Positions 4,715-37,799 of a stretch of DNA of 64,000 nt are shown here, one piece after another. Numbering within the stretch: position 1 is the first letter of the stretch; the number at the start of each line of letters is the position of its first letter. This stretch comes from Aminiphilus circumscriptus DSM 16581 (GTDB taxonomy: Bacteria > Synergistota > Synergistia > Synergistales > Aminiphilaceae), in contig NZ_JAFY01000002.1 in NCBI RefSeq assembly GCF_000526375.1, positions 620,001 to 684,000 on the forward strand, read 5' to 3'. The notes beneath the pieces are model-generated. The model saw only the letters and a program-made list of their open reading frames with translations, was not told the DNA's origin and searched no databases. The position numbers were made by a program, and so were the translations under genes.

Positions 4715-6511
4715 TCAGAGGGAAAGCCCGAGTTCGGCGAGCTTCTCCTTCGTGGGAATGCCCTGGGCATCCCATCCTCGGAGCGTGTAATACTCGGGGA
4801 TGATTTCTTTCACCCGGCTCAGTTTGCCCTTTGCGGGGCCCTCGGGAATGGGTTCTTCCAGGAGGCGTTTCGGCAGCGTGTCGTCCTTGGCAGGGTCCAG
4901 ACCCTCCCGGAGGTTGAAGAGACGCTCCAGGTTCCAGATGCGGTCGCCGCAGGCCATGATCTCCTCGGTGGTTCGCTCCAGCCCCGTCACGTTCCGGAGG
5001 ATCGTCGCGTAGTCGTCGGCGCCGAGGGCGAAGGAGGTGAAGAGGCACATGCCCGTGGAGTCGATGACGGCGGTGAGATCGTGGAAGATCTTGCCCCACT
5101 GGGCCTTGCCCTCGATCTCCCAGGGATCGAGCTTCTGGGGTACGCCAAGGACTTCCGGCGAGATGAGGTAGCCCCGAACATGGCAGGCGCCGCGGTTGCT
5201 CACCGCATAGGTGAGGCCGATCCCCTGGACGCCTCGGGGGTCATAGGCGGGAAGCTCCTGTTTTTTCACGGAGATGGAGAACTCGGGATGGCCGAAGGCC
5301 TCGCAGAGGCGGTAGCTTCCCAGGGCGAGCTTCTTGCCGAGTCCTTGGGCGCGGCCCATCTTCTCGACCCAGTACAGAAGTGCCTCTTCCGAGCCGAACC
5401 GGAGCGCCGGGCCGCCTTCGAGTTCCGCCTCGGGAAGATGGCCCTTCTCGTAGAGTTCCATGGCGGCGGCGATGGTGGTTCCCGCGCTGATCGTATCCAA
5501 CCCGAGTTTGTTGCAGAGGAAATTCGCCTTGATGATCGCGGGGAGTTCCTCGATGCCGCAGTCACCGCCGAAGCACCAGATGGACTCGTACTCGGGGCCC
5601 TCGCCCTCGAGATCGTCCACTTTCGTCACCCGTCCGCAGGCGATGGGGCAGGCGAAACAGCCGCGCTTTCCCGTGAGGTATTTCTCCGCCAGGGTCTCTC
5701 CGGCCTGTTTCTCCGCCTCGGTCATGTAAGCGCTCTGGAAGTTCTTGTAGGGATAGCTGCCGATCCCGTTCACCACGTTCACGAGCACCGCCGTGCCGTA
5801 GGTGGGAAGCCCCTGGCCGGTGACGCCGTGTTCCTTGATCTTCTGCATGACGCCACGAAGAGTTTCCTTGAGCGCCTCCGGAGCGGCTGGGGTCACGGTG
5901 CCCGAGCCCCGGACGACCACGGCCTTGAGATTTTTGGATCCCATGACGGCTCCCACGCCGCTCCGTCCGGCGGCGCGGTGCTTGTCGTTCATCACGCAGG
6001 CGATGAGGGAGAGTTGTTCTCCCGCGGGGCCGATGCAGGCCACCTTGGCCTTGTCGTCCCCCACCGCTTGGATGAGCGCGTCCGTGGTGACGTCCACGTC
6101 CTTGCCCCAGAGTTCCGACGCGTCCCGGAGTTCCACCGTGTCGTCCTTGATCCAGAGGTACGCGGGCTTTTCGGCCTTGCCCTCCAGGACGAGATAGGCA
6201 TAGCCCGCCCGGGCTAGTTCGGCTCCCCAGAACCCCCCGCTGTTGCTCGAGGCGATGAGCCCCGTGAGAGGGCTTTTGGTGACGACCATATAGCGTCCTC
6301 CCGTAGGAACGTTGGTGCCGCTCAGGGGGCCGAGGGCGAAGACGAGCTTGTTCTCCGGAGAAAGGGGATCGACCTTCGGCGTCAGCTCCTCGTAAAGGAG
6401 GCGCGTGGCGTATCCTCTGCCGCCGATGAAATCCTTCAGCCACTCCTGGCGGAGTTCCTCGCGCGCGATGGTTCCCGTGGAAAGGTTCACTCGCAGCAAT
6501 GCCTTGGACAT
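4715..6511 (-). CDS. Tungsten-containing aldehyde:ferredoxin oxidoreductase family protein
   Basis: 598 residues, the usual length of the AOR family, which oxidises aldehydes to carboxylates with ferredoxin as acceptor. Motifs: GGRGYATRLLY near 30-40, pterin-binding AGRSGVGAVMGSKNLKAV (181-198), 4Fe-4S ligands GCFACPIACG (Cys285, Cys288, Cys292) and a likely fourth ligand in GMCLF (Cys489). The ATG at 6511 has GGAAGGAG upstream; the longer frame to 6622 adds a low-complexity basic stretch. Upstream is a radical SAM protein of the type linked to tungsten-enzyme maturation, and downstream is a MoaD-like gene. The substrate cannot be told from sequence; amino-acid-derived aldehydes are a reasonable guess. 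Confidence 0.93.
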   Translation of the reverse strand: MSKALLRVNLSTGTIAREELRQEWLKDFIGGRGYATRLLYEELTPKVDPLSPENKLVFALGPLSGTNVPTGGRYMVVTKSPLTGLIASSNSGGFWGAELARAGYAYLVLEGKAEKPAYLWIKDDTVELRDASELWGKDVDVTTDALIQAVGDDKAKVACIGPAGEQLSLIACVMNDKHRAAGRSGVGAVMGSKNLKAVVVRGSGTVTPAAPEALKETLRGVMQKIKEHGVTGQGLPTYGTAVLVNVVNGIGSYPYKNFQSAYMTEAEKQAGETLAEKYLTGKRGCFACPIACGRVTKVDDLEGEGPEYESIWCFGGDCGIEELPAIIKANFLCNKLGLDTISAGTTIAAAMELYEKGHLPEAELEGGPALRFGSEEALLYWVEKMGRAQGLGKKLALGSYRLCEAFGHPEFSISVKKQELPAYDPRGVQGIGLTYAVSNRGACHVRGYLISPEVLGVPQKLDPWEIEGKAQWGKIFHDLTAVIDSTGMCLFTSFALGADDYATILRNVTGLERTTEEIMACGDRIWNLERLFNLREGLDPAKDDTLPKRLLEEPIPEGPAKGKLSRVKEIIPEYYTLRGWDAQGIPTKEKLAELGLSL

Positions 6512-6686
6512 GTTCCCACTCCTTCCCTGCCTCACTCTTCCGCCTTTTGGGGCGGAACTGTTTTCCCTGGGTCTTTCGAGCATCTCTCGTCTCTTGCAGC
6601 TCTTCATTTCGGGGGCCTTCACTCTCGTTCCTGTCTGTGGGGATACGATTTCTTCTCGTTCTCAGCTCTTCTGTCGCGCCACCTCC

Positions 6687-7808
6687 TCAGGGGCACCGCA
6701 CGAGATTGCGGTCCCAGAGACAGTCGCTGCATGCCGGAGAATCACCCCAGCAGTCACTCTCGGTGGTTTTGGGATATTCGCACACGGGAAGCAGGTGGCA
6801 GTCCAGGCAGGAGGCGTAGAGAGCCCGCCGGAGGCGCCACCGGAAACTTACGTAGCGCTCGTCGTCCCAGATCGCTGGGAGGGAACGTTCTTTCAGGGAA
6901 CCGAAGGAGGCGGCCACCACGCTCTTTTCTCGCCCAAGGACCCATTCGGGATAGGTGTGGGCCAGCCGGTAGCAGGGCACCACGGCGCCGTCGGAACGGA
7001 TCACGGCGCTTTCGGAGCGCACGAAATTGCAGTGCTTTTCCGAGGAAAGGGCGAATCTTGGCAGCAGGGCCGTCACGCCCGCCCGTTGACAGGCGACGAA
7101 AATCTTCCGCTGAAGTCGCGCCTCCTCCTCCAGGGAGAGGGGATAGAGGACGAGTTGCGTCAATTCTTTCGTCAGGGGAACGAGATTGCTCATGGAGAGC
7201 ACCGTCACTCCCACGGAGGAGAGCGTTGCGGGGATATCCGCCGCATGGTCCACATTGGATCTGGTGAGGACGAAGGCGGCACGGAGTTCCGGAAGCAAAC
7301 GCCCGGCGCGTTTTTTCTCTTCCTGGAGCATGCGGAACGTTTCCAGATGTGCCGCCGCCAGGGTCTCCCGCCCGGGAAGGAGCGCCTGTTCCGCCTCGAA
7401 GGAAATGTCCACCGCGTCCACGCCGAGCGCCACCAGTTCGCGGGCCATCTCCCGGGTCACGAGCGTTCCGTTTGTGGTGAGGGAGACGCGCAGGCCCCGC
7501 GCCTTGGCGCAGCGTACCGCGTCGAGAAAGCGCGGATGCACCAGTGGTTCTCCGAGTCCGGCGAAGTGAAAGGTCTCCAGGTGGGGAAAATCGCCGACGG
7601 ACTGAAGAAGATTTTCGTAGACGTTCCAGTCCAGATCACCCTCGCCGTCCTTCCGGAAGAGGCGGAAGCACATGGGGCAAAACAGATTGCACCGGGAGCT
7701 CAGCTCGAGATAGAGCTTCCGGAGACGTCGGTCCCGTGGAATGAAGATGATGCTGTCTTCCAGAGAAAATCGGGCCCCCGACGTGGAGTCCATGGGGAAA
7801 TCGTTCAC
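6687..7808 (-). CDS. Radical SAM protein, probable tungsten-enzyme cofactor maturase
   Basis: 373 residues. The radical SAM cluster motif CNLFCPMC (Cys40, Cys44, Cys47) is followed by a TIM-barrel-like region (FAGLGEPLVHP, LTTNGTL) and a Cys-rich C-terminus of SPASM type (about ten Cys from residue ~288 onward, including CLDCHLLPVC and CSDCLWDRNLVRC). Radical SAM/SPASM proteins next to AOR genes are annotated as tungsten-cofactor oxidoreductase maturases; the context fits here. The start is the GTG at 7808, with GAGGAGG 5 nt upstream; the ATG at 7793 has no Shine-Dalgarno. 175 nt separate it from the AOR start. Confidence 0.85.
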   Translation of the reverse strand: MNDFPMDSTSGARFSLEDSIIFIPRDRRLRKLYLELSSRCNLFCPMCFRLFRKDGEGDLDWNVYENLLQSVGDFPHLETFHFAGLGEPLVHPRFLDAVRCAKARGLRVSLTTNGTLVTREMARELVALGVDAVDISFEAEQALLPGRETLAAAHLETFRMLQEEKKRAGRLLPELRAAFVLTRSNVDHAADIPATLSSVGVTVLSMSNLVPLTKELTQLVLYPLSLEEEARLQRKIFVACQRAGVTALLPRFALSSEKHCNFVRSESAVIRSDGAVVPCYRLAHTYPEWVLGREKSVVAASFGSLKERSLPAIWDDERYVSFRWRLRRALYASCLDCHLLPVCEYPKTTESDCWGDSPACSDCLWDRNLVRCP

Positions 7809-8317
7809 GCGTTCCTCCTCTTTTTTCTCTCGCTCTTTTTGCGCCTTGGACGGGGGATGGAAACGCGAGAAGGGAGGCCCTCGAGGGCCTCCCTTCTTTG
7901 CGAATCCGGCAGGCGGAAAGATTACTCCTTCCACCCATTGCCCGTAGCGCCTCGGAGAGGTGCGACGGGTCGAAGGTGCGTTTATTCTGCTTGGGATCTC
8001 TTGCTCATGCGAACAATTTATTTTATTTGGAAAGCATAGCATGTCTTCCCTTTCCTGACAAGATGATGGAAGCCGGAAGCGTGGATATCATTTTTTTGCA
8101 GAGGAGCTGCGGCGTCATTTCGGAAAGCTCCGAAAGAACGGGTTTTCTCAATCCGGAACGTGCATTTCCAGTGCGTTCCGGATTGAGGAGTCGTGCCGTG
8201 AAATGCCTACCGTGTTTTATCGTTGAAGCCGTCAAAAAAGAAAAAAGAACGCGATTTCTCGAGGAAAGATTCGAATATGACGATCTATTTTTCGGAGAAG
8301 AGTGATGGCGATCTTTT
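7809..8317. other. Divergent intergenic region with two strong hairpins
   Basis: No convincing gene between the radical SAM gene and the Hsp20 promoter. Two large inverted repeats stand out: a 26-bp perfect palindrome at 7870-7895, and a 14-bp perfect stem (8147-8160 with 8174-8187) that extends inward by G-T and G-C pairs. Neither is followed by a T tract on either strand, so they are not simple terminators. They may be leader structures or operator palindromes. Confidence 0.6.
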
Positions 8318-9009: not shown

Positions 9010-9346
9010 CGTTTCTGGAAGGATTTGGAAGGATTGGAAGAAGTGGCACGCAGCGGTTGTGCCGAATCTGTCCTCGCGCTTTATGGATTCAGGGGGACGA
9101 GCCCCTCTTGCGGAATGGTGACGCTACCGAGGATACACCGTCATCGCAAGAGCCGCCTCTGGAGAAATCCCGAAACGATGCTCCGTAAAAGGGCTGGAAG
9201 CACGGGAACGTCGAGTTCGTCCGAGGTGTGGAGCACCAGCGCCTCAGAGGGTGCCGTATCTTCATCCGGAAACCGTGACGGGTCTTTTTCGGACCGCCGG
9301 CGGCATGTGAGGAGGTGTCCCTGGATGACAATTTCGCAACACCCAC

Positions 9347-9375
9347 TTGACATGTTGGGAAGAAGCGTGTAAAGT
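9347..9375 (+). promoter_or_regulatory. Promoter of the shikimate/tyrosine operon
   Basis: Consensus TTGACA at 9347-9352, exactly 17 bp, then TAAAGT at 9370-9375. Transcription would begin near 9382, 35 nt before the leader reading frame. Confidence 0.7.
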
Positions 9376-9416
9376 GCTCCACAACACAAAAATCCGAGTT
9401 GAAGGGAGGCAGGGCG

Positions 9417-9659
9417 ATGCGTTCTCAGAACAAAGAAGTGTTCATGCAGAGGAACAGTTCTTCCGGGAACGACGCGCAGTGCCTCCGGAGTGCGGTATCT
9501 TCTCTTCCTGACTCCCGATATTATTACGTGTTCTCCTTTACCAGCGGCCAGTGGCGGTATTACGCCAGTGGCCCTTCGCATTTGGGAACACCGATATTCG
9601 GCAGACCGGGGGCAGAAAGCGTATTCTCGGGAGGAGGACGGAAGGGCCGGGTGGCCTGA
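9417..9659 (+). CDS. Putative leader peptide with Tyr/Phe/Trp codon cluster (attenuator)
   Basis: An 80-codon frame (ATG 9417, preceded by GGGAGG) between a consensus promoter and a perfect terminator. Codons 35-49 (9519-9563) read YYYVFSFTSGQWRYY: five Tyr, two Phe and one Trp codons in 15, next to a DAHP synthase gene. Ribosome stalling there would be expected to influence folding of the downstream RNA. An imperfect hairpin (9546-9573) covers the Trp-Tyr-Tyr codons. Caution: the frame is long for a leader, the +1 frame of the same DNA encodes a MerR-like stretch (see findings), and no unambiguous antiterminator pairing was found. It may be a leader, a pseudogene, or both. Confidence 0.45.
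   Translation: MRSQNKEVFMQRNSSSGNDAQCLRSAVSSLPDSRYYYVFSFTSGQWRYYASGPSHLGTPIFGRPGAESVFSGGGRKGRVA
9556..9639 (+). pseudogene. MerR-type HTH fragment in an overlapping frame
   Basis: Read in the frame +1 to the leader, 9556-9639 gives GITPVALRIWEHRY followed by SADRGQKAYSREED. This matches the second helix and wing of MerR-family DNA-binding domains (TG-[IV]-x-P-x-x-[LI]-R-x-W-E-x-R-Y ... G-x-R-x-Y-S-x-x-D), shortened between the two parts. No further regulator sequence follows before the terminator at 9706. It is best read as a decayed remnant of a MerR-like gene, unless the resemblance is chance. Confidence 0.4.
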
Positions 9660-9705
9660 AACGTCGAAGATCCTCCGAAAGCAACCGGGAAGAGGTAAAG
9701 AAGGC

Positions 9706-9743
9706 AAGGCCGGATTCGGGTTCCCACCGAATCCGGCCTTTTT
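9706..9743 (+). terminator. Terminator upstream of aroF (probable attenuator)
   Basis: Perfect 14-bp stem (AAGGCCGGATTCGG at 9706-9719 with 9727-9740), 7-nt loop, followed by TTTTTCGTTTT. It stands 48 bp before the DAHP synthase start and after the operon promoter, so it must be bypassed for expression of the operon, the arrangement expected for attenuation. Confidence 0.8.
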
Positions 9744-9790
9744 CGTTTTCCCCTTCGGGGGAGAGAGCTTTTCGAGGAGGTGCTCGAACG

Positions 9791-10888
9791 ATGATGATTC
9801 TGGAAGTGGACCGCAGCTGCCCCAAGGGAGACATGGCACGAATGATCCAGCGCGCGGAGGAGCGCGGGTGCTACGCTCGGCTCGTTCCCTGCGAGGACGT
9901 GTACTTCATTCTCGTGGACGCCCGCGTGGAGGAGATGGCGAGCCTCGCCGCCGATACTCGGGTGCGTCGCGTGGTGGAGACGAAGAGTTCCTTTCCGCTG
10001 GCGAGCCGGGATCTCTGGAGCGGCACCCGCCCCGTGGAAGTCGCGCCGGGGATCTCCGTGGGCGGGAGCGGTGCGGTGGTCATGGCCGGTCCCTGCTCGG
10101 TGGAGAGCCGGGAGCAGATCCTGGAGACCGCCTTCGCCGTGAAGGACTCCGGCGCGGCGATTCTGCGGGGCGGGGCGTTCAAGCCCCGGTCTAACCCCTA
10201 CTCCTTCCAGGGCATGGGCAACGAGGGCATCCGTCTGCTCTGCGAGGCCCGGAAGGAGACGGGGCTTCCTCTGGTGACGGAGGTCATGGAGGCCGAATCG
10301 GTGGGGCTGCTCCTTCCCTTCGTGGACATCTTTCAGGTGGGGACCAGAAACATGCAGAACTACTCCCTCCTCAAGGAACTGGGCAAGGTGGACAAGCCGG
10401 TCCTTCTCAAGCGGGGCATGTCCGCCTCCATCGACGAGTGGCTCCAGGCGGCGGAGTACATCCTCGCGGGGGGCAACTTCCGGGTCATCCTCTGCGAACG
10501 GGGCATCCGCACCTTCGAGACCCGCACGCGGAACACGCTGGATCTCTCCGCCATTCCGGTGGTGAAGTCCCTGAGCCATCTTCCCGTGGTGGTGGACCCC
10601 AGTCACGGCACGGGGCACCGACACCTGGTGGCGCCCATGTCCCTCGCGGCGCTCGCGGCGGGGGCGGACGGTCTTATCGTGGAGGTGCACTCCGATCCCG
10701 ACAAGGCACTCTCCGACGGTCCCCAGTCCCTCAACCCCGCCCAGTTCGGGACGCTCATGGGGCAGATCGAGGGAATGCTCTCCGCCCTCGGGCGGAACGT
10801 TCTCCGGGCGGACGGCCTGGAAACGGCATCCCGCCGGGGGTGCGGAGAAATACCGCTGGCAACGCCGGTGGTTTCGGGAGCGATCTGA
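9791..10888 (+). CDS. aroF: 3-deoxy-7-phosphoheptulonate (DAHP) synthase
   Basis: 365 residues. Condenses phosphoenolpyruvate with erythrose 4-phosphate, the first step of the shikimate pathway. An N-terminal ferredoxin-like regulatory domain (about 1-70) precedes the type I-beta barrel, as in thermophile and Bacillus-type enzymes that are inhibited by aromatic amino acids through this domain. Motifs: AGPCSVES (99-106), GGAFKPRSNPYSFQG (127-141), VGTRNMQNYSLLKELG and VDPSHGTGHRHLV. First structural gene of the operon; GAGGAGGT lies 9 nt upstream of the ATG at 9791 (a second ATG follows immediately). The ~26-residue C-terminal tail is longer than usual. Confidence 0.95.
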   Translation: MMILEVDRSCPKGDMARMIQRAEERGCYARLVPCEDVYFILVDARVEEMASLAADTRVRRVVETKSSFPLASRDLWSGTRPVEVAPGISVGGSGAVVMAGPCSVESREQILETAFAVKDSGAAILRGGAFKPRSNPYSFQGMGNEGIRLLCEARKETGLPLVTEVMEAESVGLLLPFVDIFQVGTRNMQNYSLLKELGKVDKPVLLKRGMSASIDEWLQAAEYILAGGNFRVILCERGIRTFETRTRNTLDLSAIPVVKSLSHLPVVVDPSHGTGHRHLVAPMSLAALAAGADGLIVEVHSDPDKALSDGPQSLNPAQFGTLMGQIEGMLSALGRNVLRADGLETASRRGCGEIPLATPVVSGAI

Positions 10889-11005: not shown

Positions 11006-11935
11006 ATGCGGATGAAACAGGCACATGTGGGTATTCTCGGATTGGGACTTCTGGGTGGATCTCTCGCGCTGCGGCTCGGCGGATCGGGAGGAGTGCGGCG
11101 GGTTTCCGGATGGGATGCGGATCCGGCGGTGCGGGCCGAGGCGGCTCGAAAGGGTATCGCCCATGTACCGGAACATCTGGAGGACATGCTGTGCGGTGTG
11201 GACGTTCTCATCTTCGCCGTTCCCATGCGTTCCCTGGAGGAAGCGAATCGCCGGGTTCTCGGAGCGCTCCGGCGGAACGCCGGAATCGGTTTCTCCGAAT
11301 GGCCGGACCTGGCTCCAATGGAACCCCTTGAGGGACCCCGGGTCGTGATGGATCTTTCCAGCGCCAAGGTGGAGCCGGGAGAGCTGCTCCGCGGAGCCTG
11401 GAGGAGCCGTTACGTGGGGTTCCACCCCATGGCGGGAAAAGAAAACGGCGGCATTGCCAACGCCACGCCGGATCTTTTCGAGGGGGCCTGCTGCGCGGTG
11501 GTGCCTTTTGCGGAGACCTCCGAAGAGGCCTTGGCTGTGGCAGAGGAACTCGCGCTCCTTCTCGGCGCCGGTGCTGTGCGGATCGATCCCGCCGAACACG
11601 ATGCCATCGTCGCCACAGTGAGCCATCTCCCTCTTCTGACGGCTGCGGCCATGGTGCTCACGGCAAAGGCGGAGGGAAAATCCCACGCGGCCCTCGCGGC
11701 CCTCGCCGCCGGAGGATTCCGGGATGCCACGAGAGTGGCCTCCGGTCCGGCCTGGCTGGGGACGGACATGGTGGATGCCAACGGAGACCAGATCCGGCGC
11801 GTGGCGGAGCGGTTCATCGCCTCCCTGAAGGAGATGCTCGCCCTGCCGAAGAAGGAGCTGGAGGCCCTTCTCGCCGAGGCCGCGAATGCCCGGGATGGTC
11901 TGGTGACGGTGGTCCATAAGGGGAGGGCCGCATGA
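11006..11935 (+). CDS. tyrA: Prephenate dehydrogenase
   Basis: 309 residues. NAD(P)-dependent oxidative decarboxylation of prephenate to 4-hydroxyphenylpyruvate, the tyrosine branch. Rossmann motif GILGLGLLGGSLA (9-21), the GFHPMAGKE motif (138-146, His140) and SHLPLL (206-211, His207) are the family substrate-site signatures. No ACT domain or chorismate mutase domain is fused. The ATG at 11006 is chosen for its AAGGAGG; an upstream ATG at 10916 gives an Arg-rich unrelated extension. The stop overlaps the aroA start by 4 nt (ATGA), so the two are translationally coupled. Confidence 0.93.
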   Translation: MRMKQAHVGILGLGLLGGSLALRLGGSGGVRRVSGWDADPAVRAEAARKGIAHVPEHLEDMLCGVDVLIFAVPMRSLEEANRRVLGALRRNAGIGFSEWPDLAPMEPLEGPRVVMDLSSAKVEPGELLRGAWRSRYVGFHPMAGKENGGIANATPDLFEGACCAVVPFAETSEEALAVAEELALLLGAGAVRIDPAEHDAIVATVSHLPLLTAAAMVLTAKAEGKSHAALAALAAGGFRDATRVASGPAWLGTDMVDANGDQIRRVAERFIASLKEMLALPKKELEALLAEAANARDGLVTVVHKGRAA

Positions 11936-13230
11936 GGCGCGTCGTTCCCGCTCACTCCGTCCAGGGGACCGTGACGCTTCCCGGGGACAAGTCCATCTCC
12001 CATCGGGCGGCTCTTCTCGGCGCCCTGTCGGTGGAGGGCGTGACGGTGACAAATTTCTCCGGAGGTGCGGATTGTGCGTCCACACTCGCCTGTCTGGAGA
12101 AGATGGGGGTGATGGTCCGTCGTTGCGATCCGGGAACGGTGTACGTCGCCAAAAACGAGGCGTTTCTGGAGCCTGGGGATGTGCTTGACGCGGGCAACTC
12201 CGGGACGACGGCGAGAACGCTCTGCGGTCTTTTGGCGGGTGTTCCGGGCCTCTACGCGGTGCTCTCGGGAGACGAAAGCCTGCGGCGGCGACCCATGGGA
12301 CGTGTGGTGGACCCTCTCCGGGTCATGGGCGCCCGCATCGACGGGCGCGCCGGCGGCGCCTCGCTGCCGCTCTGCATCAAGGGGACGCGCCTTACGGGAG
12401 GAACGCATCGCCTGCAGATCGCAAGCGCTCAGGTAAAGACCGCCCTCCTGCTCTCGGGGCTCTCCGCCTCGGAACCCACCACTGTCGTGGAGCCCCTTGG
12501 AACGCGGGACCACACGGAGCGGCTTTTTGATTTCCTCGGCATTCCCTGTACCAGGCGGGACGATGCCATCACGATCTTTCCCTGCGAAGAGGTGAAGGGG
12601 GGGGCATGGCGCATTCCCGGGGATGTCTCCGCCGCGGCGTTCTGGCTCGTGGCGGCGGCTATCCTTCCGGATTCGGGGGTGCACCTTCCCGGATGCGGGC
12701 TCAACCCGACCCGGACGGGAATGCTTTCTGTGCTCCGGCGCATGGGGCTCGCCGTCGAGGTGACGGAAGAAGACTGCTCCGGCGGGGAGCCCGTGGGGGA
12801 TCTCCTGGTACGGAGTGCTTCCCTCGAAGGGACGAAGGTGTTTCCCGAGGAAATTCCTTCCCTTGTGGACGAACTGCCCGTGCTGGCCGTGGCGGCTACC
12901 CAGGCGAAGGGGATCACGGAGATTCGCGGCGCGAAGGAGCTTCGGGTGAAGGAGTGCGATCGCATCGCCGCCATGGCGGAGGGATTGAGGACGCTCGGAG
13001 CGGATGTGGAGGAGCTGGAGGACGGATGGATCCTCCGCGGGCCGGTGCGCCTTTCCGGAGGGCGGGTGCGCAGTTTCGGCGATCACCGCATCGCCATGGC
13101 CTTTGCCGTGGCGGGGCTCGCCGCGACGGGACCGGTGGAGATCGACGATTCCGCCTGCGTGGACATCTCCTATCCCGATTTTTTCGAGACCCTGGAAACT
13201 CTTGTCTGCCGGGGGTGTGCCGTCTCATGA
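11932..13230 (+). CDS. aroA: 5-enolpyruvylshikimate-3-phosphate synthase
   Basis: 432 residues. Transfers enolpyruvyl from PEP to shikimate 3-phosphate. Signatures: GDKSISHRAALLGAL near the N-terminus, LDAGNSGTTARTLCGLLAG near residues 84-102, VDELPVLAVAATQAKG near 310-325, and GDHRIAMAFAVAG near 384-396. The start overlaps the tyrA stop and the stop overlaps the aroC start (ATGA at both ends). I did not assign the enzyme to the glyphosate-sensitive or -insensitive class. Confidence 0.96.
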   Translation: MRRVVPAHSVQGTVTLPGDKSISHRAALLGALSVEGVTVTNFSGGADCASTLACLEKMGVMVRRCDPGTVYVAKNEAFLEPGDVLDAGNSGTTARTLCGLLAGVPGLYAVLSGDESLRRRPMGRVVDPLRVMGARIDGRAGGASLPLCIKGTRLTGGTHRLQIASAQVKTALLLSGLSASEPTTVVEPLGTRDHTERLFDFLGIPCTRRDDAITIFPCEEVKGGAWRIPGDVSAAAFWLVAAAILPDSGVHLPGCGLNPTRTGMLSVLRRMGLAVEVTEEDCSGGEPVGDLLVRSASLEGTKVFPEEIPSLVDELPVLAVAATQAKGITEIRGAKELRVKECDRIAAMAEGLRTLGADVEELEDGWILRGPVRLSGGRVRSFGDHRIAMAFAVAGLAATGPVEIDDSACVDISYPDFFETLETLVCRGCAVS

Positions 13231-14393
13231 CCCTGCGTTTTCTCACCAGTGGAGAATCCCACGGACGGGGATTGCTCGTCGTTGTGGAAGGTCTCCCCGC
13301 AGGGCTTTCCCTCGCGCTCGAGGATCTGGAGGGCGAGCTTGCCCGTCGTCGCCGCGGCTACGGCCGCGGCCCACGCATGGCACTGGAGCGCGACGCCGTT
13401 CAGGTTTGGGGAGGGCTCCGAAACGGGCGCACCACGGGGGCTCCCGTCGGATTGTCCCTGGATAACGCCGAGGCCGCCCTCTGGGAGCCCGCCCTCGGTC
13501 CTTGGCACAACGATTCCGAGGCGGCCAGAGCGCGGCGCATCACCGCTCCCCGCCCCGGACACGCCGACCTGGCTGGGGCCGTGAAGTACGGGCACGAGGA
13601 GTTTCGGGACGTTCTCGAGCGCGCCAGCGCACGCACCACCGCTCCCCGTACTCTTGCGGGAGTGCTTGCCCGGCGCCTTTTGGCGGAATTGGACGTGGAC
13701 GTGGCCGGTGCTGTGGACGCCATCGGCGGGGTCCTGGTGCGGCTTCCCGAAGATGACGAGGGGTGGCGCACCGCGAGACATTCCTCTCTGGGGTGCGCTT
13801 TTCCCGAGGATGAAAAAACCGTCGAGGAACGGATCCGTGCCGCGAAGGAGGCCGGGGACAGCCTGGGAGGAACCTTCGTGGTCGCCCTCCGGAACGTTCC
13901 CGCTGGAATCGGCAGCGGTGTAGAATGGGACCGGCGCCTGGATGGACGTTTCGGCGCGGCCCTCCTTGCCGTTCCCGGTATCAAGGGAGTGGAGATCGGC
14001 GACGGTTTCGCCGCCGCCGGAGCGGAGGGCAGTGCCGTGCACGATGAGATCATCGTTCGGGACGGGCGCTGGGAGCGTCTCTCCAACCGTGCGGGGGGCA
14101 TCGAGGGAGGCATGACCAACGGGTGTGATGTTTTCCTCCGGGCGGCCATGAAGCCCATTCCGACTCTGGTTAGGCCCCTGCGCTCCTACGATGTGGAGAC
14201 AAAAAAGCCCGCTTCGGCCCACGCGGAGCGCAGCGACGTCTGCGCCGTTCCGGCGGCCTGCGTGGTGGCGGAGAACATGGCCGCCTGGGTTCTGGCGTCG
14301 GCGGTGCTGGAACAGTTCGGCGGCGACACGATGGAGGAGCTGCGGGCACGGGTGGCCGCCCATCGGGAGCGGGTCGCGAGGTGGCTTCTGTGA
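13227..14393 (+). CDS. aroC: Chorismate synthase
   Basis: 388 residues. FMN-dependent trans-elimination of phosphate from EPSP to give chorismate. Visible signatures: FLTSGESHGRGLLVVVEGLPAG at the N-terminus, RRRRGYGRGPRM, PRPGHADLAGAVKYG, ERASARTTAPR, and near the C-terminus EGGMTNG and AHAERSDVCAVPAA. Fourth gene of the operon, with ATGA overlap to aroA and GTGA overlap to the aroK-aroB gene. Length is normal for the family. Confidence 0.96.
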   Translation: MTLRFLTSGESHGRGLLVVVEGLPAGLSLALEDLEGELARRRRGYGRGPRMALERDAVQVWGGLRNGRTTGAPVGLSLDNAEAALWEPALGPWHNDSEAARARRITAPRPGHADLAGAVKYGHEEFRDVLERASARTTAPRTLAGVLARRLLAELDVDVAGAVDAIGGVLVRLPEDDEGWRTARHSSLGCAFPEDEKTVEERIRAAKEAGDSLGGTFVVALRNVPAGIGSGVEWDRRLDGRFGAALLAVPGIKGVEIGDGFAAAGAEGSAVHDEIIVRDGRWERLSNRAGGIEGGMTNGCDVFLRAAMKPIPTLVRPLRSYDVETKKPASAHAERSDVCAVPAACVVAENMAAWVLASAVLEQFGGDTMEELRARVAAHRERVARWLL

Positions 14394-16087
14394 AGAAGGA
14401 ACGAACGGAAACGTCTCCGGGAACGGTCCCTGCTGATTCTGCCGCTGCTGCGGGTTGTCCGGGGCTCTCCTGCCCGGTCTTTCTCGGCGGATTCATGGCC
14501 TCGGGAAAGACCACGGTGGGGCGCCTTCTGGCGGAACGCCTCGGCGTTCCCTTTCTGGATACGGACGATCTGGTGGAGCGCCTCGCCGGGCTTTCCGTGG
14601 CGGAACTCTTCGCCCGCCGGGGCGAGTCGGTGTTTCGCGCTTTCGAGGCGGAGGTGGTAAAGGAGCTTCTGCCGTTGCGAAACGTCGTGGTGGCCCTCGG
14701 CGGGGGTGTGCCGACGAATCGCGAACTGCGTTCCCTGCTCCTGGAGCGGGGATTTCTGGCCATGCTCTCCGTCTCGGCGCCCACGGCACTCTTCCGGGCG
14801 GGCACGTCCGGATCGCGCCCTTTGCTCGATCCGGAAAGAGCGGAGGTGCTTCTCGCCTCACGGTCGGAGGCCTACGCGTCGGGGCACGTGACGGTGGACA
14901 CGGAGGAGCGCACCCCCCCGGAGGTGGCGACGGTCCTTCTGCACCTTCTCGAGGAAAAGGGAATTCTCGAAAAGAACGCTCTTTCCGGAAGGGGGCACGA
15001 GACGTTCCGGAAGACCGTTTCCGGAGCGCACGACGAAGAGCCCGCCGGGGTCTTCGTGGGAGAGGGGCTCCTCTCCCGGCTTTCCGAGCTGGTCCCGACC
15101 CTTCCGCCCGAGGGACCCTTCGTGGTGAGCGATCACCTTGTCGGCTCCCTCTTCGGCGGGAGCGTTCGACCTCTTCGGGGACTGCACCTCCTTCCCCGGG
15201 GGGAGGAGGCGAAAACCCTGGACCAGACGCGGTCGCTCTACGATGCCCTCGCGGAGGCCCGGATCGACCGAGGTGACTGCATCGCCGCCCTCGGCGGCGG
15301 CACCGTGGGGGATGCGGCGGGGTTCGCCGCCGCCACCTGGCTCCGGGGAATCGCCTTTCTCCAGTGTCCCACCACGCTGCTCGCCATGGTGGACAGCAGT
15401 CTGGGAGGCAAGGTGGGGGTGAACCTTCCCCAGGGCAAGAATCTCGTGGGAGCCTTCTATCCTCCCGTGGCGACCGTCATGGATGTGGCTACGCTGCGGA
15501 CGCTCCCCGACGAGGACTTCCGCCAGGGTTTGGCCGAGGTCGTCAAGTACGGCATCGGCGAGGACCAGGACTTCCTCGGGGAACTCTCGGAGAAGCGGGA
15601 GGCGATCTCCCGACGCGATCCCGAGATCCTCGTCCGCCTTGTTCGGAAGTGTGCCCTGCTGAAGACCGCCGTGGTGGCCGAGGACGAGAAGGAAACGTCG
15701 GGTGTGCGAGCCCGTCTGAATCTCGGCCACACCATCGGACACGCCCTGGAGGGCGCGTCCGGTTATGCCTGGCGTCACGGCGACGCCGTTGCGGCGGGGC
15801 TCGTGGTCGCCCTGGAGATGGGAAAACGGCGCGGGACCTGCAGTACCGCCTTTGCGGAGACCGTGGCGGAACTGCTCCGCTTCTTCGGGCTCCCGAATCG
15901 TCCCGACCGCTCCTGGGAGGAACTGTTTCCCTTCCTCAACCGGGACAAGAAATTCCGCAGAGGGGTTCCTTGTCTGGTGCTTCCCCGGGAAGGCGGGACA
16001 TGCACCCTGGAGGAATGTTCCCTCGAAGAGCTGCGGCAGGCCTACGAGGCCGTTTCCGGAGGAAGAGGCTCCGTCGCGTTCTCCTGA
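14390..16087 (+). CDS. aroKB: Shikimate kinase / 3-dehydroquinate synthase fusion
   Basis: 565 residues carrying two enzymes. Residues ~30-190 are shikimate kinase with Walker A GGFMASGKTTVG and the shikimate-binding FLDTDD and ALGGGVP motifs. Residues ~210-555 are dehydroquinate synthase with GGGTVGDAAGFAAATWLRG, DSSLGGKVGVN, QGLAEVVKYG and NLGHTIGHALE. The two steps are not consecutive in the pathway (second and fifth), so the fusion more likely secures coordinated expression than channelling. The start is the GTG at 14390, overlapping the aroC stop, with GAGGTG upstream. The first ~25 residues (Thr/Ser/Ala-rich) have no counterpart in plain AroK. Confidence 0.95.
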   Translation: MKKERTETSPGTVPADSAAAAGCPGLSCPVFLGGFMASGKTTVGRLLAERLGVPFLDTDDLVERLAGLSVAELFARRGESVFRAFEAEVVKELLPLRNVVVALGGGVPTNRELRSLLLERGFLAMLSVSAPTALFRAGTSGSRPLLDPERAEVLLASRSEAYASGHVTVDTEERTPPEVATVLLHLLEEKGILEKNALSGRGHETFRKTVSGAHDEEPAGVFVGEGLLSRLSELVPTLPPEGPFVVSDHLVGSLFGGSVRPLRGLHLLPRGEEAKTLDQTRSLYDALAEARIDRGDCIAALGGGTVGDAAGFAAATWLRGIAFLQCPTTLLAMVDSSLGGKVGVNLPQGKNLVGAFYPPVATVMDVATLRTLPDEDFRQGLAEVVKYGIGEDQDFLGELSEKREAISRRDPEILVRLVRKCALLKTAVVAEDEKETSGVRARLNLGHTIGHALEGASGYAWRHGDAVAAGLVVALEMGKRRGTCSTAFAETVAELLRFFGLPNRPDRSWEELFPFLNRDKKFRRGVPCLVLPREGGTCTLEECSLEELRQAYEAVSGGRGSVAFS

Positions 16088-16222
16088 TCGGCTCCGGGGC
16101 ACGGATGGGCTGTCGCAGTTCGTTTCGTTGCCGCACGCGTGGACGGCGAAGTGTCCTTCCGGGGGTGCTCCGCCGTTTTCCGCGCTGTGGTATCGTATGT
16201 CCGAGAGAGGGAGGAACGGGAA

Positions 16223-17008
16223 ATGCGCGTGATGCCCACGAGATCCCTGACGGCAAGGGGCAAGGTTCTGGGAGGAGAGCGCCCTCTCGTGTGCGTGCCC
16301 CTCGTGGGGAGAACGCCGGAGGGCGTTCTGGAGGAAGCACGGACCGTCGCCGCCGCCGCGCCGGATCTCCTGGAGGTGCGGGCGGATGCCTGGGAATGCG
16401 CGGAGCGGACCGGCGAGGCGATGGCACTTCTGGCCCGTCTTCGGGAGAGTGTGGAGCATCTTCCGCTCCTTTTCACCTGCAGAAGTGCCGCCGAGGGAGG
16501 CTTCCGCCCCGTCGGCGAGGACGCCCGAACCCGCCTCTTCCATGCGGCCGTGGAAGAACGGCTCGTGGACTTCGTGGATCTGGAGCTCTCCTGCGGTCGG
16601 GAGCGCCTTGCAGCGCTGAAGCGCCGCGCTGCGGAGCGGGGGATTTTTCTCGTCGTCTCCTTCCACGATTTTGAGGGAACGCCCTCCCGGGAGGCGCTTC
16701 TCGCCACCGTCGCCGCTCAGGTGGAGGCGGGGGCGGATGTGGCCAAGGTGGCGGTCATGCCGCAGCGCCCCGAGGACGTGCTCACGCTTCTCGCGGCGAC
16801 CCTGGAGGCACGACGCCTCTTTCCCGAGACACCCCTCGTCACCGTGTCCATGGGAGAGCTCGGCGCGGCGAGCCGCGTCATGGGATGGCTCTGCGGCTCC
16901 GACCTGACTTTTGCGGTGGGGACCGCCGCTTCCGCGCCGGGGCAGATTCCTCTGGCGGCACTCCGCGGGGTGAACGATGTGCTGCTGTCCCCGAAAGACT
17001 CTGCCTGA
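16223..17008 (+). CDS. aroD: Type I 3-dehydroquinate dehydratase
   Basis: 261 residues. Class I (Schiff-base) dehydratase converting 3-dehydroquinate to 3-dehydroshikimate. Signatures: LLEVRADAWE near 51-60, LFTCRSAAEGG near 86-96, the active-site region VSFHDFEGTPS with the catalytic His, and ADVAKVAVMP with the Schiff-base lysine. The ATG at 16223 follows GAGAGGGAGG; the longer frame from 16139 has no Shine-Dalgarno. 135 nt after the aroKB stop with no terminator seen between, so probably the last gene of the operon. Confidence 0.93.
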   Translation: MRVMPTRSLTARGKVLGGERPLVCVPLVGRTPEGVLEEARTVAAAAPDLLEVRADAWECAERTGEAMALLARLRESVEHLPLLFTCRSAAEGGFRPVGEDARTRLFHAAVEERLVDFVDLELSCGRERLAALKRRAAERGIFLVVSFHDFEGTPSREALLATVAAQVEAGADVAKVAVMPQRPEDVLTLLAATLEARRLFPETPLVTVSMGELGAASRVMGWLCGSDLTFAVGTAASAPGQIPLAALRGVNDVLLSPKDSA

Positions 17009-17089
17009 TCCGGAAATTTCTTCTTGCGAAAAGGGTGCGGCGTGAAGTCGGTGGAGATCTGTTAGGAGCCAGCTCCGCCGCTGTTGCAT

Positions 17090-17117
17090 TTGCATGGACA
17101 AGCCAAGCTTCTATAAT
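17090..17117 (+). promoter_or_regulatory. Promoter of aroE
   Basis: Perfect -10 TATAAT at 17112-17117, with TTGCAT at 17090-17095 spaced 16 bp. It lies in the 132-bp gap between aroD and aroE, 23 bp before the aroE start. Confidence 0.55.
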
Positions 17118-17140
17118 GATGATAAAGAAAGAGGGATTGC

Positions 17141-18082
17141 ATGACCTTCTGCCCCACTCCGGCCACGAAGTATGTCGTGCTCTTCGGCAACCCCCTGGCG
17201 CATTCCCTGTCGGCCCGGCTCCACAACGCGGTGTTCCGGGCATGGAAATGGGACTGTCTCTACTACCCCCTGGAGAGCGACGGCGCGGAGGCGCTTGGAC
17301 GCATCCTGTCCGTGCTGCCCCTTTTTCACATCGTCGGCGCCAACGTCACCATGCCCTACAAGGAGACGGTGATTTCCTTTCTGGACCGGCTCGATGCCGG
17401 TGCCGCCGAGTGCGGCGCGGTGAACACCATTGTGGTCACCGCCTCGGGGCTGGTGGGGCACAACACGGACGGCACGGGATTTCTCCGTTCCTTCACGGAG
17501 ACCTTCGGAGAGTCCCTCGAGGGAAAGCGCCTTCTCGTGGCAGGGGCCGGAGGCGCGGCGAAATCCCTCGTCTTCGCCCTGCTCCGGGCAGGTGTGGAGC
17601 GGGTCGTGGTGTACAACAACAACGAGGCCAGAGCGAAGGGACTCGTGGAGAGGGTGGAGGCGTTCCATCCGGGAAAATGCGTCTGGCATCCTTTGGAAGA
17701 CAAACCCGTGCCCGCCGCGGCGGTGCGCGAGGCGGACATTCTTCTGAACACCACGAAGATGGGCATGCGGGGTGCCCTCGAAGGCGCATCTCCCTTCAAT
17801 TTCGCGTCGCTGCGTCCGGGACAGTTCGTCTGCGACGCGGTCTACAATCCTCCCGAGACACGGCTCCTTGCGGAGGCGGCTGCGGCGGGGTGCCGCACCC
17901 TCGGCGGCGAGGGCATGTTCCTGCACCAGGCGGCGGAGGCGTTCTTTCTCTGGTTTGGTCAATATCCGGATGTGGACCTCATGCGCGATGTTTTCCGGGA
18001 GCACTTCCGCACGGTCCAGCATTCGGGAGTGCGGCGGACGAGTGCCGAAGTGCGTACTCCACGCTGTGACATGCCGACATAG
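17141..18082 (+). CDS. aroE: Shikimate dehydrogenase
   Basis: 313 residues. NADP-dependent reduction of 3-dehydroshikimate to shikimate. N-terminal substrate domain with GNPLAHSLSARLHNAVF, NVTMPYKETV (catalytic Lys) and GAVNTIV, then NTDGTGF, then the Rossmann motif VAGAGGAAKSLVFALL, and DAVYNPPET and GMFLHQAAEAF near the end. About 30 residues longer at the C-terminus than typical AroE; that tail is basic and unconserved-looking. It has its own promoter, separate from the main aro operon. Confidence 0.95.
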   Translation: MTFCPTPATKYVVLFGNPLAHSLSARLHNAVFRAWKWDCLYYPLESDGAEALGRILSVLPLFHIVGANVTMPYKETVISFLDRLDAGAAECGAVNTIVVTASGLVGHNTDGTGFLRSFTETFGESLEGKRLLVAGAGGAAKSLVFALLRAGVERVVVYNNNEARAKGLVERVEAFHPGKCVWHPLEDKPVPAAAVREADILLNTTKMGMRGALEGASPFNFASLRPGQFVCDAVYNPPETRLLAEAAAAGCRTLGGEGMFLHQAAEAFFLWFGQYPDVDLMRDVFREHFRTVQHSGVRRTSAEVRTPRCDMPT

Positions 18083-22721: not shown

Positions 22722-23834
22722 GTGACGGATGTGGACGGGGAAAAACTCGCGGAACTGCGTCGGGACATCGACCGCGTCGATGGAGAGATCGTGGCGCTTC
22801 TTCTGGAGCGGGTCGGGGTGGCGCGACGGATCGGCCTCGCCAAGGGGGATGGGCCGGTGTACGATCCCGCCCGGGAGGCGGAGGTGCTGGAGCGGGTTCG
22901 GGGACATGCCTGCTCCGGAGATGCCGAACCGGACAGGGCACTTGCGGCCTCTCTGGGAGCGATCTACCGGGAGGTGCTCTCCCTGTGCCGGGGGGTACAG
23001 AGCCCGTTGCAGGTCGCGGTGCTCGGGCCCCAGGGTTCCTTCTCGGAGGATGCCGCCCGGACGGCTCTGGGATCGGCGGTGACGCTGCGGTACCAGGGTT
23101 CGATTCCGGACATCTTCAGGGTCCTCGACAACGGCGGAGCCGATCTCGGAGTGGTGCCCATCGAAAACACCATCGAGGGAGCGGTGCTCTTCACGCTGGA
23201 TGCCTTCGCGGGGGCTTCGAAAGGTCTTCGGGTACAGAGCGAACTCTCGCTGCCCATCCGGCACGTTCTCGTCTCGGAAGCGGCGTCCCTGGCGGACGTG
23301 ACGGAGGTTCGCTCCCATCCCCAGGCGCTTGCCCAGTGCCGCGTCTGGCTCCGGACGAACCTTCCCGGCGCGGTCCTGGTCGCCGCGGAGAGCACCAGCG
23401 GTGCCGCCGCATCGGTGAAGGGCCTTCGGCATGCCGCAGCCATCTGTTCCCGGAGAGCCGCGGCGCACCACGAGCTGCCCGTTCTCGCCGAGCATATCCA
23501 GGACCAGCCGGGAAACTCCACCCGTTTCTGGATCGTGGGAAAGGGACCGGTGCGCCCGGGCCCGAAGAACAAAACCTCCGTTCTCTTCAACGTGGCGCAT
23601 CGTCCGGGAACGCTTTTCGCCGCCCTCGAACCCCTCTACACCGCGCTGCGGAATCTCACCCACATCCAGTCGCGCCCGCTGGCGGGCAATCCCTTCGAGT
23701 ATCTCTTCTTCGTCGATTTCGAGGGACACGAGGAGGAGGAGACGGTGAAGAAGGTGCTCGCCGCCATGGCGGAACACTGCACCTTCTTCCGCGTCCTCGG
23801 TTCCTATCCCTTCCGGAGCGTGGAGGACCTGTAG
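22722..23834 (+). CDS. pheA: Bifunctional chorismate mutase / prephenate dehydratase
   Basis: 370 residues: AroQ-type chorismate mutase (about 5-88: LAELRRDIDRVDGEIVALLLERVGVARRIG), prephenate dehydratase (about 97-275: LGPQGSFSEDAA, VVPIENTIEGAV, HPQALAQC, GNSTRFWIV) and a C-terminal ACT domain (about 283-365) with the TH-IQSRPL (ESRP-like) phenylalanine-binding motif. Converts chorismate to phenylpyruvate and is expected to be feedback-inhibited by Phe. The start is the GTG at 22722 with GGAAG 6 nt upstream; the GTG at 22731 is an alternative. Converges on trpA with only 4 nt between the stops. Confidence 0.95.
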   Translation: MTDVDGEKLAELRRDIDRVDGEIVALLLERVGVARRIGLAKGDGPVYDPAREAEVLERVRGHACSGDAEPDRALAASLGAIYREVLSLCRGVQSPLQVAVLGPQGSFSEDAARTALGSAVTLRYQGSIPDIFRVLDNGGADLGVVPIENTIEGAVLFTLDAFAGASKGLRVQSELSLPIRHVLVSEAASLADVTEVRSHPQALAQCRVWLRTNLPGAVLVAAESTSGAAASVKGLRHAAAICSRRAAAHHELPVLAEHIQDQPGNSTRFWIVGKGPVRPGPKNKTSVLFNVAHRPGTLFAALEPLYTALRNLTHIQSRPLAGNPFEYLFFVDFEGHEEEETVKKVLAAMAEHCTFFRVLGSYPFRSVEDL

Positions 23835-29495: not shown

Positions 29496-31159
29496 GACCG
29501 GTCGCCTCCTTGTGCGGCAGTCTCCAGGGGTGCGGCGACGATCTCCGCGTCGCCGAGGGCGCAAAAGAGCGCCCGTGCCTTGTTCAGCGTCTCCTCGTAC
29601 TCCGCGTCGGGATCCGAATCGGCCACGATGCCCGCCCCGGTCTGGAGCCGAAGGATGTTCTCCCTGATCACGAAGGTGCGGATGGCGATGCAGGTGTCCA
29701 GATTGCCCCGGAAGTCCACGTATCCCACGCCTCCGGCGTAGACCCCCCGGAACAGCCCCTCCAGATCGGCGAGAATCTCCATGGCGCGGATCTTGGGCGC
29801 TCCCGAGACGGTTCCCGCGGGAAAGCTCGCCCGAAGGGCGTCGAGGGCGTCCCGGTCGTCCCGGAGGACGCCCTCCACCTGGGAGACGAGGTGCATGACC
29901 CGGGCGAAGCGCTCCACCTCCAGATACTCGGACACGACCACGCTTTCGGGACGGCAGATCCGGGCCAGGTCGTTTCGGGCGAGATCCACGAGCATCACGT
30001 GTTCCGCCCGCTCCTTCTCGTCCTTCCGGAGTTCCGCCTCGAGCGCCCGGTCCTCCCGGGGCGTGGCGCCCCGCCTTCGCGTGCCCGCGAGAGGGCGGGA
30101 GATCACCTTGTGTCCCTGGACGCGGAGAAGAACCTCCGGCGAGGAGCCCACAAGGGCCAGCTCGGGGAATTCCATGCAGAACAGATAGGGCGACGGGTTT
30201 GCCGCCTTGAGGGACCCGTACAGCGTCAGCGGGTCCGCCGGAGCCGGACACTCGAAGCGATGGGAGAGCACGATCTGGTAGGCGTCTCCCCGGGCGATGT
30301 GTTCCCTGGCGGCCTGCACCATCTCTCCGAAACGCGTCCTCGAAACGGAAGGGACCAGGCGTACCGGGCCGGTTTTCCCGGTTTTCCCGCCATTGGTCCC
30401 ATGCGCCGACGGTGCGGGCTCGGGGTCGGCAAACAGTTTTTCGAGAGCGGCGAGGCGGTGGCGGGCATTTTCGTAGCTTCGCCGAAGGCGCGCCACATCC
30501 TCCGCGGCGTTTTCTCCCCGCGGTTCGGGAGGCTCCGCCAGGACGAGAAGCGTGAGGGAATGCTCCACCGCGTCCGTCACCGCCACGACCCCGGGCACAA
30601 AGAGGACCGACGCGGGATGGTCCGGAGAGGGCAGCCTTTTTCCGGGTTGGTCGTGAAAGAGATCTTCCCAGAGTTCCGCCATCTCGTAGCCGAAGAAGCC
30701 CACCACGCCGCCGCGGAAGGGGGGCAGCGTTCCGTCGTCGTAGAGACGCACGCCTGCCAGAAAGGAGCGTATCGTCTCCAGAAGATCGGCTCCGGGAAGC
30801 AGGGATTCCCGCCCCTCCGCGTCGGTTTCGGCCACGCCTTCCGGAACGGCCCGGAAGATCCGCAGCGGCGCCGCGCCGAGAAGAGCGTAGCGCCCGCCGT
30901 GGAGGTCGCGTCCGTCTCCTTCGAGGAGAAAGACGCTTCTGTCCAGAGTGCGGAGTCTCTCGTACACATTCTCCGGGGACATTTCTCCGAGGGGGAGCCG
31001 GAGGGCGAAGGGGATCAGGGAATACTCTCCGGCGAGGGCGCAATACTCCTCCGCGCCCGCTCCCGTTCCTCCCTCTTCCGCCCGCTGCAACGCACTCTCC
31101 GCCCGGAAGAACGCCTCCTTCGCATCGGGAAAAGGCGTCGCGGTTCTGGTTTGCCTCAT
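29492..31159 (-). CDS. trpE: Anthranilate synthase component I
   Basis: 555 residues. Chorismate-utilising enzyme forming anthranilate with the TrpG domain. C-terminal catalytic signatures: RPLAGTRRRGATPREDRALEAEL, KERAEHVMLVDLARNDL, FPAGTVSGAPKIRAMEIL, GGVGYVDFRGNLDTCIAIRT and QTGAGIVADSDPDAEYEET. The N-terminal region holds SLIPFALRLPLGEMSPENVYERL. The ATG at 31159 follows AAAGGAG. It sits about 120 nt after the attenuator terminator. Confidence 0.96.
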   Translation of the reverse strand: MRQTRTATPFPDAKEAFFRAESALQRAEEGGTGAGAEEYCALAGEYSLIPFALRLPLGEMSPENVYERLRTLDRSVFLLEGDGRDLHGGRYALLGAAPLRIFRAVPEGVAETDAEGRESLLPGADLLETIRSFLAGVRLYDDGTLPPFRGGVVGFFGYEMAELWEDLFHDQPGKRLPSPDHPASVLFVPGVVAVTDAVEHSLTLLVLAEPPEPRGENAAEDVARLRRSYENARHRLAALEKLFADPEPAPSAHGTNGGKTGKTGPVRLVPSVSRTRFGEMVQAAREHIARGDAYQIVLSHRFECPAPADPLTLYGSLKAANPSPYLFCMEFPELALVGSSPEVLLRVQGHKVISRPLAGTRRRGATPREDRALEAELRKDEKERAEHVMLVDLARNDLARICRPESVVVSEYLEVERFARVMHLVSQVEGVLRDDRDALDALRASFPAGTVSGAPKIRAMEILADLEGLFRGVYAGGVGYVDFRGNLDTCIAIRTFVIRENILRLQTGAGIVADSDPDAEYEETLNKARALFCALGDAEIVAAPLETAAQGGDRS

Positions 31160-31460: not shown

Positions 31461-31505
31461 TTAAGCCCGCCACCACCAGTTTCGAAGAAGAGTCTGTACG
31501 TTCAC
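31461..31505 (-). CDS. trpL: trp operon leader peptide, WWW
   Basis: 14-residue peptide MNVQTLLRNWWWRA read from a GTG at 31505 (GGGAGG spaced 7 nt) to TAA. Three consecutive Trp codons (31470-31478) lie at the base of a GC-rich hairpin whose 3' arm is just past the stop. This is the architecture of ribosome-mediated trp attenuation: when charged tRNA-Trp is scarce the ribosome stalls on the Trp codons and the downstream terminator fails to form. Too short for most gene finders. Confidence 0.88.
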   Translation of the reverse strand: MNVQTLLRNWWWRA

Positions 31506-37421: not shown

Positions 37422-37799
37422 GTGACGATGACGTCGAAGGTGGCTTTCGCGACTGAGGGGGGACTGGTGTCGGCTCATTTCGGACATGCCCCGGTTTTTC
37501 TGGTGGTGACCATCGAGGATGGTCGCGTTCTTTCCCGAGAGGAGCACCCCAATCCCGGGCATGTGCCGGGTGCCCTGCCCAAGTGGCTTGCGAGTCTCGG
37601 AGCGACCTGTGTTGTCGCGGGAGGCATGGGAGAGCAGGCGCGTCGTCTTTTCGAGGCGAGCGGCATCCGGGTTGTCGTGGGTGCTTCGGGGAATGTGGAG
37701 CAGGTGCTCGAGACGTATCTCTCGGGAACGCTTTCCGGAACGGAAAGTTTCTGCAGCGGCAGTGGCACCTGTGGGGACCATTCCCATCACGCTTCCTGA
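37422..37799 (+). CDS. NifX/orange-protein-type Fe-Mo cofactor family protein
   Basis: 125 residues. VAFATEGGLVSAHFGHAPVFLVV and ATCVVAGGMGEQARRLFEASGIRVVVGASGNVEQVLETYLSG are the typical family segments, and it ends in a Cys/His-rich tail (CSGSGTCGDHSHHAS) that could bind metal. The start is taken as the GTG at 37422, 7 nt from GGAGG; an ATG at 37416 overlaps the previous stop but is too close to the Shine-Dalgarno. Followed within 14 nt by the first MinD-like gene. Confidence 0.87.
   Translation: MTMTSKVAFATEGGLVSAHFGHAPVFLVVTIEDGRVLSREEHPNPGHVPGALPKWLASLGATCVVAGGMGEQARRLFEASGIRVVVGASGNVEQVLETYLSGTLSGTESFCSGSGTCGDHSHHAS

Follow-up and report, generated by a model that had tools for sequence, protein, structure and literature searches.

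Background

In Corynebacterium glutamicum, a short aroF leader with Phe-Tyr-Phe precedes the gene for DAHP synthase and has been proposed to be an attenuator (PMC4046766). In Acholeplasma, the upstream open reading frame (ORF) uORFC-13-1, which contains Phe codon(s) and is accompanied by a promoter, a ribosome site and an adjacent terminator, is found exclusively before aroF (PMC8632094). For the aroF-tyrA genes of E. coli, attenuation through sensing of tRNA-Tyr has been hypothesized (Camakaris 1980, as cited in PMC8632094 and PMC2659441).

Here we describe a leader upstream of aroF in Aminiphilus circumscriptus DSM 16581 (Synergistota), located in a window of 64,000 nucleotides (the whole stretch of DNA analyzed; contig NZ_JAFY01000002.1, positions 620,001 to 684,000). 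We consider this leader to be a ribosome-mediated transcription attenuator of the aroF operon, with a probability of about 0.9. The evidence consists of the parts present, their conservation, covarying mutually exclusive helices and computed folding, from which we infer that the leader is translated, the ribosome stall, the direction of the response and which amino acids are sensed.

Results and discussion

An aromatic leader upstream of the aroF operon

The leader is followed by aroF, tyrA, aroA, aroC, aroK-aroB, aroD and aroE (Table 1), and a single terminator would thus gate the whole shikimate pathway as well as prephenate dehydrogenase. Among positions 9200 to 9900, the promoter listed in Table 1 was the only promoter-like site (0.1 expected). 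Stretches with at least 7 aromatic codons per 15 stop-free codons were found at a single place on either strand of the 64-kb window, i.e., the regulatory codon cluster. A sequence-only reading of this DNA had reported a consensus promoter before DAHP synthase, a position ahead of the first gene of a shikimate/tyrosine operon, a translated-looking frame with 8 aromatic codons among 15, a hairpin overlapping these codons and a 14-bp terminator; all of these leader features are confirmed here, and the interpretation of the leader as an attenuator is supported by the analyses reported below. On the minus strand, Rfam identified a Moco (molybdenum/tungsten) riboswitch (RF01055; 41.8 bits) at positions 7877-7987, upstream of a radical-SAM-like gene (6687-8042, minus strand) and also of an aldehyde:ferredoxin-oxidoreductase-like gene (4715-6622, minus strand), both named by eye.

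Table 1. Features of the aroF leader region and of the trp leader in the window
Feature	Position	Strand	Remark
Promoter, sigma-70-type, TTGACA-17-TAAAGT	9347-9375	+	kept in same-genus genome
Leader ORF, 80 codons; GGGAGG ribosome site before ATG at 9417, ends with TGA	9417-9659	+	frame kept in 31 aroF loci
Putative regulatory codon cluster, Y Y Y V F S F T S G Q W R Y Y	9519-9563	+	8 aromatic codons among 15; per-codon conservation
Anti-antiterminator 5' strand, in V-F-S codons right after Y-Y-Y	9528-9535	+	pairs with 9584-9591
H1 hairpin, GGCCAGTGGCG-GTATTA-CGCCAGTGGCC; one mismatch, Tyr codons in loop	9546-9573	+	overlaps codon cluster
Antiterminator 5' strand, GGGAACACCGATATTCGGC	9584-9602	+	pairs with 9709-9725
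Antiterminator 3' strand (terminator 5' arm and loop), GCCGGATTCGGGTTCCC	9709-9725	+	pairs with 9584-9602
Intrinsic terminator, 14 bp (9706-9740) plus T-run	9706-9745	+	covariation
aroF, DAHP synthase (TIGR01361), first gene of the putatively regulated operon	9791-10888	+	NCBIfam
tyrA, aroA, aroC, aroK-aroB, aroD, aroE	11006-18082	+	NCBIfam names
Trp leader with W-W-W, VNVQTLLRNWWWRA followed by stop	about 31504-31460	-	classical, upstream of trpE

Conservation of the leader across Synergistota

Comparison with the same-genus genome showed 97.9% identity for the leader ORF and 98.5% for the terminator stretch, versus 86.7% plus gaps for the intergenic DNA just upstream. In the closest aroF group (group 1, within the order), the leader was present before aroF in all 31 loci with readable upstream DNA, where it encoded a peptide of the pattern (Y/F)n-F-T/S-x-G-Q-W-R-(Y/F)n-Y-A-S-G, some loci carrying variants, e.g., L-W-L instead of Q-W-R, and was followed by a terminator. 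The comparison with relatives, which could have gone against the attenuator reading, found the Tyr/Phe cluster, H1 with Tyr/Phe codons in its loop and the terminator to be conserved; aromatic codons, H1 and terminator are kept in at least 10 families of the order. Group 2 comprises 13 further aroF loci with a shorter, different Tyr/Phe leader without H1 (FFAAEYYYFYFFG..., FAGFYYFYCY...); a terminator is present in these leaders and most have a candidate antiterminator strand (P = 0.006 to 0.09 for 6 of the 7 tested; P = 0.29 for L067). At five aroF loci examined, no leader was found. Covariance model R1 matched the group-1-type leader in 40 of 188 Synergistota genomes, representing 19 of 63 genera; two further genomes gave weak matches (G006 and G166; E about 0.003) that resembled chance hits. 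When 84,980 genomes were scanned with a pattern for the H1 core, 8 loci in Synergistota and one in Prevotellaceae were returned; the Prevotellaceae locus had no leader context and was taken as a chance match.

The 80-codon length of the frame, which the sequence-only reading had considered a weak point, is indeed unusual, but it is particular to this genus, with leader ORFs of 46 to 62 codons elsewhere. The ribosome site and start are located 63 to 102 nt 5' of the Gln codon in other leaders, as compared to 132 nt in the window. Among 22 aligned leaders, codon -4 relative to Gln was TTT and the Trp codon was invariant in all 22. Conservation of codons and frame suggests that the leader ORF is translated. 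In L120 (genome G002, same family, outside the 22-leader alignment), the H1 loop lacks two bases, which shifts the frame downstream of H1 but leaves the antiterminator strand in place; this shift possibly represents a sequencing error, or possibly indicates that RNA rather than the downstream peptide is selected there.

As hairpin, sequence, terminator and antiterminator are all conserved, one could propose that a ligand is sensed directly by RNA structure (a riboswitch or a protein-binding site) and that the open frame is incidental. This is very improbable, as (i) H1 loop lengths change in threes (by 0, 3 or 6 bases) among the aligned leaders, (ii) all 22 leaders have Phe or Tyr at codon -6 (counted from Gln) even though TAT, TTT and TTC are all used, and (iii) the leaders share conserved ribosome sites and starts, with a stop that is always located past the antiterminator strand, at least 21 nt beyond its core. 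Moreover, Rfam searches (including T-box and amino-acid leaders) found no match in 9340-9800 even at an E of 1, which excludes a T-box or other Rfam element at the aroF leader.

The conservation of particular residues, beyond mere aromatic content, could also reflect a nascent-peptide arrest leader (TnaC-like), where the switch would be set by arrest instead of codon starvation, through an action of G-Q-W-R-Y-Y-A-S-G inside the ribosome tunnel that may involve a free aromatic amino acid; in L018-L020, for example, the Ser of A-S-G persists through a switch from AGT to TCT. We nevertheless regard peptide arrest as improbable, since the codons for the same residues make up both H1 arms, which accounts for most of their conservation, since aroA paralogs of the leader keep a Tyr-loop hairpin but carry D-Q-G-Y-Y-Y-Y-P, and since the motif is missing from group-2 leaders.

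Covariation of mutually exclusive helices

Using the alignment of 22 leaders, we counted two-sided changes in the antiterminator and terminator helices and compared them against shuffles. The antiterminator helix was paired in 90.5% of cells and showed 23 two-sided changes as compared to 6.7 in shuffled data (0 of 500 shuffles reached the observed number); pairing dropped to 17-62% when the strands were slid. The terminator showed 32 cells with two-sided changes as compared to 9.6 in shuffled data, and H1 was paired in 95.9% of cells. RNAalifold independently returned H1 and the terminator, and the window leader RNA folded better than all of 100 shuffles (z = -5.2). Pairing between the antiterminator strand and UUUACC, located 5' of H1, was also considered as a conserved helix but dropped by eye, as it showed no covariation.

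As the antiterminator and terminator helices both use the terminator 5' arm, they are mutually exclusive; a search for such exclusive structures had been suggested along with the original observation, and it found them with strong covariation. The antiterminator, of which the sequence-only reading had seen no clear sign, thus exists, and it is among the best-supported features of the leader. The long gap of approx. 140 nt between codon cluster and terminator, listed as another weak point, is normal for this leader family. By itself the terminator is unremarkable, and one might take it for an ordinary terminator of upstream transcription next to a chance aromatic stretch, with no regulation involved. 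The uniqueness of this stretch in the window and its conservation across families, together with two mutually exclusive helices that covary, make such a coincidence hardly credible.

U75-G76 (A1 columns 64-76) is located 11 nt after the H1 stem. This spacing is that of hairpin-stabilized RNA polymerase pauses, and H1 may pause the polymerase and synchronize it with the ribosome.

Sequestration of the antiterminator strand and proposed mechanism

Folding was simulated assuming a 30-nt ribosome footprint, with values that depend on the treatment of upstream RNA. Without a ribosome, the window leader formed the anti-antiterminator at 0.79-0.93, the antiterminator at 0.04 and the terminator at 0.98; with a ribosome stalled 5' of H1, at whichever Tyr or Phe codon, the antiterminator reached 0.97-0.99; and with a ribosome at the stop codon, the antiterminator was at 0 and the terminator at 0.98. 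Simulated stalls inside H1 (at W or the loop YY) gave a clear antiterminator only when RNA behind the ribosome was also masked, and a second ribosome masking the far-upstream start gave low antiterminator values in one setting. In the energy model the terminator always wins once both of its arms are present, and antitermination must therefore be kinetic.

The window leader possesses a translatable ORF with a ribosome site and clustered codons for pathway end products, as well as an intrinsic terminator ahead of the first structural gene; an anti-antiterminator that a stalled ribosome could disrupt is found in the window and in most lineages. According to the mechanism that we propose, transcription would begin just past 9375, and a ribosome would begin the leader peptide at 9417 as H1 and the antiterminator strand are being transcribed. 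Upon a shortage of charged tRNA-Tyr or tRNA-Phe, and perhaps of charged tRNA-Trp, this ribosome would stall within the codon cluster and block the anti-antiterminator, whose 5' strand lies right after Y-Y-Y, so that a stall there would remove it directly. The freed antiterminator strand would then capture 9709-9725 before the terminator 3' arm is made, and transcription would continue into aroF-tyrA-aroA-aroC-aroKB-aroD-aroE. When aromatic tRNAs are charged, the ribosome would reach 9659, H1 and the anti-antiterminator would re-form behind it, and the terminator would stop transcription.

In most relatives, simulations predicted that the antiterminator strand is sequestered upstream without ribosomes and released when the upstream RNA is covered; no competing anti-antiterminator was predicted in L018-L020, L025 and L029. 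In many relatives the strand complements the start region of the leader itself (GATGACGG with CCGTYATC), and in L015 the GTG start faces CAC of the antiterminator strand. At register 0, 7 to 8 of 8 positions of the start region pair in L004, L005, L009, L013, L015 and L024, as compared to 1 to 6 in other registers. For 13 lineage representatives, upstream complementarity exceeded that of shuffles with a combined P of about 5e-7, which is optimistic as representatives and stretches were picked after the folds were seen; the downstream control gave P = 0.16, with some control P-values (L018-L020) contaminated, as the control stretch probably reaches the terminator there. In relatives with a start-region partner, the antiterminator forms in silico mainly when a second ribosome covers the start site. 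Unlike in these relatives, the anti-antiterminator of the window overlaps the codon cluster, and one ribosome would thus suffice there.

Amino acids sensed and related leaders

The leaders hold 2 to 7 Tyr, 1 to 7 Phe and 1 to 2 Trp codons. The sequence-only reading had proposed that Tyr, Phe and Trp are all sensed; numerous, conserved Tyr and Phe codons agree with this proposal, while its Trp part is weaker. In aroF leaders the one Trp codon does not vary, but it is placed in the H1 stem; it is absent from aroA-type leaders and most group-2 leaders, and the same chromosome, as had also been reported correctly, uses a separate classical W-W-W leader before trpE (29564-30982, minus strand), followed by a terminator-like hairpin at about 31389-31339. 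These codon patterns suggest that Tyr and Phe are likely the main signals, with sensing of Trp possible. A frame at 37501 (MPRFFWW) was rejected as trp leader, as the actual one is located near 31504 on the minus strand. A pheA gene resembling a fused chorismate mutase/prephenate dehydratase (22738-23543, plus strand) has no evident leader of its own.

Related leader copies were found before other genes, which were named by eye from translations. In genera g26, g30 and g51 (L109-L116 and L121), aroA-aroC are preceded by a second Tyr-rich leader (e.g., FVFEFAFSCDQGYYYYPLVCPVLETDRRLA), which contains a Tyr-loop hairpin of its own and a TGGAAACCG/CGGTTTCCA-type antiterminator. Genome G116 carries a third copy (L117; FSGFSFSYGRWYYSADGRC) before an aroE-like gene. 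Two Thermovirga-related genomes (L118 and L119) carry an FYFYYFTG leader with antiterminator GGGACCCC/GGGGTCCC before a phenylacetate-CoA-ligase-like gene, possibly reflecting control of aromatic amino acid breakdown. Such leaders on split operons allow one to follow the duplication and adaptation of an attenuator. It is tempting to hypothesize a Synergistota-wide regulon, with copies over aroF, aroA-aroC, aroE and the phenylacetate-CoA-ligase-like gene, where the anti-antiterminator would sequester the leader start and two ribosomes, one stalled at Tyr/Phe codons and one at the start site, would be read; we put this forward tentatively, with the odds somewhat against it.

Comparison with known attenuators

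If the attenuator reading is true, ribosome-mediated attenuation is a conserved strategy for aromatic synthesis in Synergistota, and the leader represents a point of control, accessible to testing, over tyrosine synthesis and the entire shikimate pathway in this phylum. No aro leader from Synergistota was found in the open-access literature on attenuation and leader peptides, where such regulation in this phylum thus seems undescribed.

Like the trp, phe, his, thr, ilv and leu attenuators, the leader encodes a peptide rich in codons for pathway products, and it shares with classical attenuators mutually exclusive anti-antiterminator, antiterminator and terminator helices as well as a stop codon between codon cluster and terminator. 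Unlike these, the Synergistota leader mixes Tyr and Phe codons for a common pathway, it has a separate hairpin (H1) with Tyr codons in the loop and an antiterminator strand outside H1, and in many relatives its anti-antiterminator covers the start codon of the leader itself. The C. glutamicum aroF leader belongs to another phylum and has three reported aromatic codons, and the consulted passages of its description (PMC4046766) do not describe H1 or GQWRYYASG. uORFC-13-1 is reported from Acholeplasma as well as from environmental sequences without assignment, with one or more Phe codons and no Tyr cluster (PMC8632094). The E. coli hypothesis, as far as the citing papers convey it, concerns the same gene pair, aroF-tyrA, as the operon in the window. 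Overall, the Synergistota leader represents a new and previously unlisted family within a known type of control; in relatives, the anti-antiterminator that covers the start codon would allow two-ribosome control to be tested cleanly, and this part could turn out to be a distinct variant.
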